From the NCBI GenBank assembly GCA_017849575.1, contig JAFIGV010000020.1, positions 1-61,311 on the forward strand: DNA of 61,311 bases, written 5' to 3'. A program made the position numbers and the translations under genes. The DNA is from Flavipsychrobacter sp. Lineage in GTDB: Bacteria; Bacteroidota; Bacteroidia; Chitinophagales; Chitinophagaceae. Of the stretch, positions 4,912 to 55,614 are shown piece after piece (the stretch's first letter is position 1; the number at the start of each line of letters is the position of its first letter). The notes beneath the pieces are model-generated. The model saw only the letters and a list, made by a program, of their open reading frames with translations, ran no database searches and had not been told where the DNA came from.

Positions 4912-5685
4912 TTAGGCATTGTCGGATCCGCCGGAGAAAACAGCGCCGATATATTCGCGATTGAGACGTGCAATATTTTCTACGGAGATACCTTTAGGAC
5001 ATTCTGCCTCACAGGCGCCTATGTTGGTGCAGCTTCCGAAACCTTCTTTATCCATTTGAGCCACCATGTTTATAGCGCGGATCTTGCGCTCAGGATCGCC
5101 CTGTGGCAACAAAGCCAGGTGAGAGGCTTTGGCACTTACAAACAACATAGCTGAAGCGTTGGGACAAGCGGCTACGCAGGCTCCGCAACCAATGCAGGCA
5201 GCAGCGGCAAAAGCTTCGTCAGCTTTATGTTTTTCTATGGGTATGGCATTGGCATCCACAGCATTACCTGTGTTTACGGAGACGTATCCACCGGCTTGTA
5301 TGATACGGTCGAAAGCCTGACGATCCACTACCAGATCTTTGATCACCGGGAAAGCATTGGCTCTCCAGGGTTCTACAACAATGGTGTCGCCGTCTTTATA
5401 CTCCCGCATATGGAGCTGGCAGGTAGTGGTTTGATGCCACGGTCCGTGTGCCCTGCCGTTGATATACATAGAGCACATACCGCAGATGCCCTCGCGGCAA
5501 TCGTGGTCGAATGCTATCGGCTCTTTACCTTCTGCAATCAACTGCTCATTCAAAACATCGAACATCTCGAGGAAAGACATCTCTGACGAAATGTTCTTTA
5601 CCTGATAGGTCTCAAACTGACCTTTACTCTTCATGTTCTTTTGCTTCCAAACCTTAAGTGTAAGGTTCATTGTATAGTGTTCCAT
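4912..5685 (-). CDS. sdhB: Succinate dehydrogenase/fumarate reductase iron-sulfur subunit
   Basis: Electron-transfer subunit that passes electrons between the flavoprotein SdhA and the membrane cytochrome b. The N-terminal ferredoxin-like domain has the [2Fe-2S] ligands Cys63, Cys68, Cys71 and Cys89. The C-terminal domain has [12 protein letters not shown] (Cys164/167/170/174) and [12 protein letters not shown] (Cys219/225/229), which bind the [4Fe-4S] and [3Fe-4S] clusters. Length (257) is normal for the b558-type enzyme. An alternative start is the ATG at 5670 (MNLTLKVW). The start codon at 5685 lies only two bases after the stop of the inserted four-helix-bundle gene, next to an inverted repeat, so its translation may depend on that element. 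Confidence 0.96.
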
Positions 5686-5687
5686 CT

Positions 5688-6047
5688 CTAATTTGATGAT
5701 TTGGAGATTTGAAAATTTGAAGATGCTTTTGAAGTTGCAATAATTTTCGAAAGCACCTTTTGAATAGTCTCTATATTTTTTAAAAGTTCACCACATTCCG
5801 GGTAGTTTTCTGCAGCCGAGCACAACATCAACCAATACTCGGTTTCATCAGCTTCCTTAGCAGCGACCTTCATTTTATGAATAAAGTCGCTTTTACTCTC
5901 AGCGTTTTGAGCCTCTCTTACGTTTGCACCAATTGCAGTTCCTGATCTGAACAGTTGATTTGATAAATTGAACTTTCGGACAGTCTCAAGCTTTTCGGAA
6001 TAATTGATAATAGCCTTTGAAAAATCAAAAGTTAAATCAACAATCAT
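5688..6047 (-). CDS. Four-helix-bundle protein of the 23S rRNA intervening-sequence (IVS) family
   Basis: 119 residues with the family core [20 protein letters not shown], followed by [16 protein letters not shown]; helices are predicted throughout. Proteins of this family (TIGR02436) are known as the open frames inside intervening sequences of some 23S rRNA genes and are related to the Avd accessory protein of diversity-generating retroelements; their biochemical role is poorly known. I chose the ATG at 6047 (MIVDLTFDF); the frame could extend to a TTG at 6077, but that part is repeat sequence. The last dozen residues (NFQISKSSN end) are encoded by the left inverted repeat. The gene sits between sdhA and sdhB, interrupting an otherwise standard operon. 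Confidence 0.88.
5690..5725 (+). repeat. Left inverted repeat of the IVS-like element
   Basis: Imperfect 8-base repeats of the form GAnnATTT make up 5695-5725. The 19 bases 5706-5724 (core GATTTGAAAATTTGAAGAT) occur exactly inverted at 6086-6104, and the outer AATTTG (5690-5695) matches CAAATT at 6108-6113 inverted. The repeat overlaps the 3' end of the four-helix-bundle gene and stops five bases before the sdhB start. Confidence 0.85.
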
Positions 6048-6072
6048 ATTTTGCTTATTCGGCTGCAAAATC

Positions 6073-6113
6073 CTCAAATCTTCAAATCTTCAAATTTTCA
6101 AATCGCCCAAATT
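6073..6113 (-). repeat. Right inverted repeat of the IVS-like element
   Basis: Four tandem octamers on the plus strand (CTCAAATC, TTCAAATC, TTCAAATT, TTCAAATC; 6073-6104) followed by GCC and CAAATT. The last two octamers and the two bases before them form the exact 19-base inverted partner of 5706-5724. The outer end coincides with the sdhA stop codon (6112-6114). Confidence 0.85.
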
Positions 6114-8088
6114 ACTTATAGCTCCGCTGTGTCGGGTGTACCACGTCGTAATTCAACTCTTCTTTGTGCAATTCAAAACTGCTGTCGCCCTTATATTCCC
6201 ATGCGGCTACGTACATAAATTGATCGTCTTGTCGCAACGCTTCACCATCTTCTGTTTGATATTCTTCGCGGAAGTGACCACCACAGCTTTCATTGCGGTT
6301 GAGCGCATCCATACACATCAATTCGCCAAGCTCCATGAAATCTGCTACACGGTTGGCTTTGTCAAGCTCAGGGTTAAATTCTTCCACATTACCGGGTATC
6401 CGCACATTGGACCAGAATTCTTTTCTTAATGCCCGGATCTCATCAATTGCTTCTTTCAGTCCTTGTGCATTACGCGCCATTCCGCACTTGTCCCACATGA
6501 TCTTGCCCAGACGCTTATGAAAACTTTCAACACTTTCTGAGCCCTTTATGTTCATGAGCTTTTCAATTCGCTCGCGCACGGCTTTCTCAGCCTCCTCAAA
6601 TGCGGGGTGAGATGTAGGAATAGACTTTGTACGAATATCGTCTGCCAGATAGTTACCAAGTGTATAAGGAATTACAAAGTAACCATCCGCCAAACCTTGC
6701 ATTAGTGCCGAAGCTCCGAGGCGATTTGCACCGTGGTCGCTAAAATTGGCTTCTCCGAGTGCATACAGACCGGGAACAGTAGTCATGAGTTCGTAATCCA
6801 CCCAAAGGCCGCCCATGGTGTAGTGCACCGCAGGATAGATGCGCATAGGGACTTCGTAAGGATTTTCACCGGTGATCTTTTCGTACATCTCGAAAAGGTT
6901 GCCATACTTTTCTTTAACTACAGCCTTTCCAAGTTCGCGTACCAGCGCAGCATCAGGATTGTGATTACCTTGTTTGCCCGCCTCTATTTTTCCATAGCGG
7001 TCTATTGCCGACGCATAGTCGAGATACACGGCCTGCTTGCTCGCTCCCACTCCATAGCCGGCATCGCAACGTTCTTTTGCGGCACGGCTCGCTACATCGC
7101 GGGGCACAAGGTTACCAAATGCAGGATATCTTCTTTCCAGATAGTAATCTCTTTCTTCTTCGGGTATGTCGTTGGCTTTGCGATTGTCGCCTTGTTTTTT
7201 TGGCACCCAGATACGACCATCGTTGCGCAAGGATTCTGACATCAGCGTAAGCTTCGACTGATGGTCTCCACTCACAGGAATGCAGGTTGGGTGAATTTGC
7301 GTAAAGCAAGGGTTTCCGAAAAATGCACCTTTCTTGTGTGCTTTCCATGCCGCGGTAACATTGCTGCCCATGGCGTTGGTAGAAAGGTAAAAAACATTAC
7401 CATAACCACCCGAACACAGCAGTACTGCATGACCGAAATGTCTTTCCAGTTCGCCAGTCACCAGATTGCGAACAATCACTCCACGCGCCTTACCGTCTAT
7501 CATGACGATTTCAAGCATTTCGTGACGCGAATATTGTGTTACATTGCCCAAAGCCACCTGACGCTCCAGCGCCTGATAAGCACCTATAAGCAATTGCTGT
7601 CCGGTTTGTCCGGCGGCATAAAACGTACGCTGTACCTGAGTACCTCCAAACGAACGATTGCTGAGCAGTCCGCCATATTCGCGGGCAAAAGGAACGCCCT
7701 GCGCTACGCACTGATCTATAATATTTGCGCTCACCTCAGCCAGACGATGCACATTGCCTTCTCTTGCACGGTAGTCGCCCCCTTTTATTGTATCATAAAA
7801 CAAACGGTAAACGCTGTCACCATCGTTCTGATAATTTTTTGCAGCATTGATCCCTCCTTGCGCAGCTATGGAGTGCGCACGGCGTGGACTATCCTGAAAG
7901 CAGAACGTCTTTACCTTATAACCCAGCTCACCAAGGCTTGCGGCAGCCGAAGCGCCGGCAAGACCCGTTCCGATGATGATCACTTCCAACTGTCTTTTGT
8001 TCGCAGGGTTCACCAGCTTGCAGGTGGACTTGTAAGTGGTCCACTTTGCAGCAAGTTCGCCTTGAGGTATTTTGGAATTGAGTGGCAT
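6112..8088 (-). CDS. sdhA: Succinate dehydrogenase/fumarate reductase flavoprotein subunit
   Basis: Catalytic FAD subunit interconverting succinate and fumarate. The dinucleotide-binding motif [10 protein letters not shown] is near residue 40. The FAD-linking region [13 protein letters not shown] is near residue 72, and [13 protein letters not shown] is the second FAD contact. The length of 658 residues is normal for this family. I use the ATG at 8088 ([11 protein letters not shown]); the longer frame starts at a TTG inside the preceding DUF1569 gene. The C-terminus HPTQRSYK is intact, so the insertion downstream has not truncated it. The gene belongs to the sdhC-DUF1569-sdhA-sdhB operon. Confidence 0.96.
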
Positions 8089-8116
8089 TGATTCTATAAT
8101 TGAACTGTTATCTAAA

Positions 8117-8578
8117 TTATACTCCAAATTGTTTCAGGTGATGGTCCAGATGCTTCCATTGAAGCAGGTCCCATTCTTCGTGGGTCATGGGTCCGAAAAA
8201 CGGATGGCGTTCACCAAGATGATGCTTCGATCCCATTTCAGAAAATTTCTCGACCCGGGCTATCAGCTTTTTCCTTTCCGTTTCAAAATCTCGCTGATCG
8301 GTTATTTTAAAAGTCTTCGCAGTGGGGCTGTTTTTGTCCAGATTTTCGTTTCTGATGAATTTGTTTTTCACAGACTTTCCAAAGAGCAAGCTGAGCATTT
8401 TCATCACAAACCCATTTTCAAGTTCACCATCACCGGTGGCTACGTCAATAGGTTTTTGAGCATGTGCCAACATCTGGCTTACCGACATCTTTCCCCATAC
8501 GGGTTTATGTTGCGGCGTCAGTTGCTCTATACGACGGATAATCTCTCCCTTTCCTTCTTCTGTGAATAAAGTCTTCAT
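8117..8578 (-). CDS. DUF1569 domain protein (DinB-like fold)
   Basis: 153 residues resembling DUF1569, a DinB/YfiT-like helical bundle family. Visible conserved parts are [16 protein letters not shown] near the N-terminus and [28 protein letters not shown] at the end; the histidines could bind a metal as in DinB-like proteins. Function is unknown. It lies between sdhC (gap 5 bases) and sdhA in the same direction, an unusual place, as sdhCAB is normally uninterrupted in this phylum. No signal peptide. Confidence 0.8.
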
Positions 8579-55540: not shown

Positions 55541-55614
55541 TGACTCCGTCAGGATTCAAACCTGAAACCTTTTGATCCGTAGTCAAATGCTCTATTCAGT
55601 TGAGCTACGGAGCC
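55541..55614 (-). tRNA. tRNA-Arg (anticodon ACG)
   Basis: 74 bases on the minus strand fold into a full cloverleaf: acceptor GGCTCCG/CGGAGTC with discriminator A, D arm GCTC/GAGC, anticodon stem TTTGA/TCAAA with loop CTACGGA (anticodon ACG), T arm TCAGG/CCTGA with loop TTTGAAT. The first anticodon base A is expected to be edited to inosine by TadA, reading CGN codons. The CCA end is not encoded. One G-T pair at position 2 of the acceptor stem. Confidence 0.96.

Follow-up and report, generated by a model that had tools for sequence, protein, structure and literature searches.

A four-helix-bundle gene between inverted octamer arrays at an sdhA-sdhB junction: a candidate one-gene mobile cassette

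The locus and its gene

The window, by which we mean the whole stretch of 61,311 nt of Flavipsychrobacter DNA that was analysed, carries a small gene between sdhA and sdhB, neighbours whose names come from their translations and from the preliminary description, without a family search. Read along the minus strand, on which all three genes lie, sdhA (6112..8127) ends in a TAA stop codon and is followed by an array of ATTTGARR-type octamers (6070..6113), by a gene for a four-helix bundle (FHB) protein of the PF05635/S23 type (5688..6047), by an array of the same octamer in inverted orientation (5690..5724) and then by sdhB (4912..5685). The FHB gene starts with an ATG at 6047 and encodes 119 aa, and its frame is open from a TTG at 6077 (129 aa). 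The outer end of the sdhA-side arm overlaps the sdhA stop codon; the sdhB-side arm also encodes the C-terminal tail of the FHB protein, making up its last codons and TAG stop (5688-5690), and sdhB starts 2 nt past that stop. The inverted repeats of the preliminary description, built of octamer units, are real: GATTTGAAAATTTGAAGAT at 5706-5724 is the exact reverse complement of 6086-6104 (19 bp), and an outer AATTTG (5690-5695) is complementary to CAAATT (6108-6113), which runs 2 nt into the sdhA stop (TTA on the plus strand, 6112-6114). A repeat search returned a pair of 34 nt (5691-5724 and 6070-6103) that is 85% complementary. Arms were scored by aligning the 300 nt on the upstream side of the FHB core to the reverse-complemented 300 nt downstream, with a threshold of 14; those of the window score 21.5, above all 244 shifted brackets scored alike, of which the maximum is 14.

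The gene between the arms matches the Pfam family 23S_rRNA_IVP (PF05635; E 2.5e-20), the only domain found in it, as well as TIGR02436 (four helix bundle protein), and so belongs, as had been described, to the intervening sequence (IVS) family, with codirectional neighbours on both sides. Its predicted structure (mean pLDDT 92.4) matches 2rld, a five-chain S23-family protein of Bacteroides, which it also matches in sequence (E 2.5e-21). We know of no role for PF05635/FHB genes. Neither the ORF list nor the domain search of the cassette gene gave a transposase encoded in the cassette. Eighteen sources, the window and 17 other loci, were scanned for rRNA and gave no match, and an rRNA location of the cassettes is ruled out for these eighteen. 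At gathering thresholds Rfam yields one match in the window, a tRNA at 55541-55614 on the minus strand.

FHB genes are very common, with up to 16 per genome among the 60 genomes of the same family that were searched, and the window's own genome has PF05635 matches in eight places. These include an accB-like/accC-like junction, with AATTAGCC-type arms, and an rfbB-like/rfbA-like junction (names again taken from translations). Six of the eight copies pass the arm threshold, the others being a copy on contig C25 (13.5) and a broken copy on C16 (11), and the repeat units differ among the copies. The ATTTGARR-type octamer of the window also occurs elsewhere in this genome in arrays without an FHB gene: with up to two mismatches allowed there are 42 matches, four of them in the arms of the present element, and a reversed-pattern control gives none. 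The preliminary description had looked to further copies of the array accompanied by the same gene; the arrays were found, the gene beside them was not. One such place, C32:114058-114589 (L047:4059-4590), holds five tandem units of about 127 bp in which an ATTTGAAR array stands beside AATGAGCC-type octamers, and the FHB gene is absent from the stretch examined. ATTTGAAR arrays also lie near contig ends (C10:109, C17:118, C19:159999, C23:226 and C26:188), and because C23 and C26 start with identical sequence, the assembly was probably interrupted at these points by a longer repeat. A scan of 400 kb of contig C1 accepted 17 inverted repeats, and two Markov shuffles gave 4 and 3. The idea that hairpins without a gene abound across the genome was considered and rejected, the only two repeats with tandem-period arms in these 400 kb being two FHB cassettes.

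Inverted arrays, repeat units and operon position

The generality of this bracketing was examined at 126 loci, comprising 37 from a first analysis (the eight of the window's genome included), 29 from an order-wide search and 60 fetched places; two were dropped for short flanks, leaving 124 usable loci from the own genome, family and order. Inverted arms reached the threshold at 101 of these 124 loci, direct repeats at only 12. Among the controls, a single shifted bracket out of 244 did so, as did 2.6% of the 4000 mismatched flank pairs. An independent collection scan gave a mixed-phylum set of 80 loci, or 79 once L342 was dropped for a short flank, of which 59 pass compared with two of 141 shifted brackets. 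Mismatched pairs from this set reach 14 or more in 15.6% of cases because the loci share units. Loci below the threshold number 23 of 124 and 20 of 79 respectively. All 12 loci on named plasmids (11 cyanobacterial, one from Bernardetia) also pass, the maximum in 24 shifted brackets being 12; mismatched plasmid pairs score high too (95th percentile 23), again because units are shared among loci. The titles of the mixed-phylum records name Spirochaetales, Chloroflexi, Planctomycetes, Verrucomicrobia, Betaproteobacteria, Acidobacteria, Nitrospirae, Patescibacteria and others. The case in the window is therefore one instance of a design that is widespread across many bacterial phyla and is best known from rRNA genes. 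Searches of open-licence papers gave none that connects PF05635 genes with repeat arrays at operon junctions.

The same bracketed outline surrounds genes of an unrelated family, PF13366, with a PD-(D/E)XK fold: 21 of 30 such loci pass, compared with one of 60 shifted brackets. Their arms are made of units that differ from the FHB ones (CACAGAGG, ACGCAGAT and CGCAAAGA types). Either two families have reached the same design, or a shared factor moves the arms of both.

The arms consist of a short repeated unit, inverted from one arm to the other, that measures 8 bp in the window and 7 bp in most of the lineages sampled. Among 113 bracketed loci, 65 have period 7, 31 period 8, 11 no clear period and six another one. 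A frequent unit of the mixed-phylum loci is [CT]AGCNNT: 24 of the 79 are flanked on both sides by strict inverted arrays of it, and the wrong orientation is seen upstream in nine and downstream in two; the more distant flank holds 27 matches in 328 kb (both strands), and 400 kb of the window's own genome none. Units of period 8 approximate to AT[TG]NGNN[AG], with free positions, and the upstream, sense-side arm is G-rich in 89 of 101 cases. Both the length and the sequence of the unit go with the lineage of the FHB protein, also where the sites are unrelated. For 90 of 96 genes the nearest protein from another genome has arms of the same period (7 or 8), compared with a mean of 53.8 and a maximum of 69 in 1000 shuffles, and when pairs with homologous flanks are left out the period is still shared by 79 of 96 (null mean 53.6, maximum 70). 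With homologous flanks likewise excluded, arm similarity drops with protein distance (Mantel r -0.27, none of 500 permutations as low), and does so within period 7 (-0.21) and within period 8 (-0.52). Between close proteins the correspondence is less strict: the window gene and its accB-accC paralogue are 61% identical and have unlike arms (arm score 5).

If one considers that the unit tracks the protein lineage, and that the arrays lie at gene ends near the next start codon, they could be operators, bound by an FHB protein that regulates itself and its operon as a resident gene rather than an element. We think this very improbable, since the occupied junctions differ between relatives, the plasmid copies lie in unrelated operons and, at sdhA-sdhB, four of the seven FHB genes have interrupted frames, unlike a regulator that is needed.

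The position of these genes within operons is strongly biased. Of 113 bracketed FHB genes, 100 are codirectional with both neighbours, four are opposite to both and nine are mixed, and the arm starts at a median of 0 nt from the upstream stop codon. ORFs were called mechanically. As a baseline, 400 kb of one contig of the own genome hold 76 genes no longer than 160 aa, of which 29 are codirectional with both neighbours and 15 opposite to both. The 79 mixed-phylum loci divide into 52 codirectional, seven opposite, 12 mixed and eight with a neighbour missing. This sense bias may reflect the avoidance of polar effects on the host operon. On cyanobacterial plasmids, FHB genes were also seen inside CRISPR operons, in the cas6-cas4 gap in two genera and the cmr2-cmr3 gap in one (L294, L302 and L299); the cmr2-cmr3 gap of Picosynechococcus PCC 7002 is free of an FHB gene. 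A survey of CRISPR-linked genes includes the PF05635 family (PMC10910872). Caution is needed here, as neighbourhood within an operon, such as that of the FHB genes in the cas6-cas4 and cmr2-cmr3 gaps, should not be taken for function.

Pairing of the arms and occupancy of the sites

It had been proposed that the sdh transcript would fold into a long stem, and a predicted fold does pair the arms of the window (-113 kcal/mol, z -2.76). The arms might then constitute an IVS-like RNA element, in which RNase III cuts the stem, frees the FHB message and parts sdhA from sdhB. The precedent is the IVS in the 23S rRNA of Coxiella, which has the same kind of ORF and arms and is cut by RNase III (PMC4990558), and the strong sense bias is also what such an element would lead one to expect. 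Three tests of an RNA-stem function were carried out, and none was clearly positive. Shuffling whole units of one arm leaves the pairing at least as good as that of the real arms of the window (p = 1.0), and among 96 loci treated in this way nine fall below p 0.05, the real mean being about 3 points above the shuffled one in a comparison that is biased towards the real arms. The free positions of heptamers match between arms at 0.517 compared with 0.537 when shuffled (38 loci). G-U mismatches exceed A-C ones by 103 to 77 in the Bacteroidota set (p 0.06), whereas the other two sets show no such excess (12:14 and 19:19). Several plasmid cassettes moreover lie opposite to their neighbours. An RNase III stem as the reason for the repeat is therefore not supported, and we set it aside and hold the RNA element to be improbable as an account of the locus; given that the arms pair in the predicted fold, cleavage may occur as a by-product. 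Since pairing is untuned, free positions are unmatched and the G-U excess is weak or absent, the arms are better read as inverted arrays of a recognition unit, to which the FHB protein would be the likely binding partner.

Comparison of relatives reveals both filled and empty sites, as a mobile unit would leave. From 30 same-family loci at sdhA-sdhB, three without sdhA in the stretch, 27 junctions could be read: seven hold an FHB gene (six confirmed by Pfam, L102 by similarity only), one a PF13366 gene and three another gene, and the remaining 16 are gaps of 28-174 nt, the short gene-free junctions that the preliminary description had looked for. It had also named in advance, as counter-evidence, that all relatives carry the gene here, and this is not the case: among seven genomes of the window's genus, only its own (G000) has an FHB gene at sdhA-sdhB, and none of the six congeners does. 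One of them, G334, has a PF13366 gene at this junction, with arms that score 25.5, and the other five have neither cassette, with gaps of 30 nt (G020), 141 nt (G331), 143 nt (G332) and about 100 nt between BLAST pieces (G333 and G335). These empty congeners are too diverged for the insertion ends at the window's own site to be read. A PF13366 gene also lies at sdhA-sdhB in G013 and, in G030, where the sdhB side was examined, 77 nt upstream of sdhB. At accB-accC, which is filled by an FHB cassette in the own genome, many relatives have a hairpin without a gene, in which 7- or 8-bp units can in some cases be seen. Of 20 correctly placed gaps, 12 pair better than shuffles (p <= 0.03); beyond these 20, one gap was misplaced, three were too short and five were not located. 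Five gaps at this junction measure 21-41 nt.

The clearest comparison comes from plasmids. Site A is filled in Trichormus and Scytonema and empty in Nostoc linckia, Aulosira laxa and Nostoc carneum, and the 300-nt flanks of the empty plasmids are 97.7-99.7% identical to those of Trichormus. The insert measures 428 bp, one copy of GTAAT included; this 5-bp sequence, in which the upstream gene has its TAA stop, is single in the empty site and doubled in the filled one, and represents the only clear target-site duplication that we found. Two further plasmids have, at site A, a gene-less hairpin of similar heptamers (L311) and a remnant (L308). Site B is filled in L300 and empty in L313 and L319, and at site C (L298) the upstream ORF is cut short by the insert; neither shows an unambiguous duplication. 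TTCTA was considered as a target duplication at site B and rejected, because L298 and L300 share ATTCTA ends, which are probably part of the cassette. Another FHB gene lies at the next junction of the site B operon in L314. Site D exists in three states, with an FHB gene (L297), with a gene-less hairpin (L317) and without an insert (L318).

The gene-less arrays at junctions that are elsewhere filled (accB-accC in relatives; plasmid loci L311 and L317) raise the possibility that a host transposase, for example of the Y1/HUH type, acts in trans on the inverted arrays, much as for a MITE, with the FHB gene as cargo that has some other role. A cassette without a transposase, and the presence of PF13366 genes in the same outline, are in line with this. 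Across the 60 genomes of the same family, FHB copy number also correlates with that of Y1_Tnp (rho 0.56, p 2.7e-6), no correlation being seen for RVT_1 (0.09) or genome size (0.14), although this may merely mark genomes that are rich in mobile elements. However, nine of 45 FHB-bearing genomes have no Y1_Tnp match, and action in trans leaves the match between unit and FHB lineage unexplained, so we regard this explanation as unlikely, whilst giving it appreciable weight. Reverse transcription was rejected as a route of movement, RVT_1 having no matches in the own genome and being absent from 34 of the 45 FHB-bearing genomes.

A probable one-gene cassette and its relation to known systems

Taken together, we consider it on balance probable that the locus is a one-gene mobile cassette of about 430 bp, in which an S23/IVP-type FHB gene lies between inverted arrays of a short direct repeat and works through a complex of FHB protein and arrays. 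The preliminary proposal of an IVS-like mobile unit in a protein operon gains support from the empty sites, the filled and empty plasmid pairs, the co-variation of gene and arms, and an architecture found in many phyla. The cassette would insert into DNA; it occurs mainly at the stop/start junctions of operons and in sense orientation, where it would break no ORF and be read by the host transcript. Because the arrays accompany the gene and their unit changes as the protein diverges, the FHB protein, whose solved relatives consist of five chains, most likely binds the arrays, forming a complex that may move, copy or protect the cassette; the enzyme that cuts and joins may be the host's. Self-mobility is unproven, since PF05635 has, to our knowledge, no recombinase motif. 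If PF05635 genes are indeed mobile cassettes, this would link the origin of S23-type rRNA IVSs, the heptamer arrays known from cyanobacteria and others, and stray small genes inside conserved operons.

Several known systems share features with this cassette. The resemblance of PF05635 to Avd has been noted (PMC10053308), and the FHB model appears to have the same fold as bAvd of diversity-generating retroelements (4dwl; TM 0.61-0.65 on the query, but Foldseek E 0.37-0.69), yet the window's genome is without an RVT_1 match. Insertion sequences and MITE-type elements depend on a transposase, which the cassette does not encode. REPIN/RAYT systems, in which REP sequences accompany a Y1 transposase, are similar in having one gene, flanking inverted repeats, gene-less intercistronic hairpins and repeats that follow the protein; the cassette differs in having no Y1/HUH domain, arms made of 7-8 bp unit arrays and a four-helix bundle as its protein. 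The PF13366 genes, which we take to be of the GxxExxY type, share the bracketed one-gene outline, also at sdhA-sdhB, with an unrelated protein and other units.

The short tandemly repeated repetitive sequences (STRRs) of cyanobacteria are heptamer repeats. TAACTGA repeats are found in Beggiatoaceae, Cyanobacteria and Bacteroidetes with a patchy spread, for which the paper describing them found no mechanism (PMC4679880). Both resemble the arms described here in unit length, in intergenic position, often near start codons, and in patchy spread across phyla; they are described as direct repeats with no gene attached, whereas the units here are the inverted arms of an FHB gene. Also close is the S23-type IVS. 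The Coxiella IVS is reported to have 428 nt, a 28-bp terminal stem, an S23 ORF and, directly before that ORF, three tandem heptameric repeats whose number varies between strains (PMC4990558). Protein family, similar length, terminal inverted repeats and short tandem repeats beside the ORF are thus held in common. The IVS lies in 23S rRNA and is cut by RNase III, whereas the cassettes described here lie between protein genes, in the window sdhA and sdhB, and the pairing of their arms does not clearly point to an RNA stem under selection. That the Coxiella IVS has this architecture suggests, by analogy, that rRNA IVSs may be cassettes of this class that landed in rRNA. More tentatively, and with some doubt on our part, PF05635 may define a separate class of minimal mobile element without a known recombinase, in which an oligomeric FHB protein would recognise its own inverted arrays of a 7- or 8-bp unit with a fixed skeleton and free positions; the operon junction would then be its usual home and the rRNA IVS a special case, and many of the heptamer repeats that are so far unexplained in cyanobacteria and other bacteria would be its debris.
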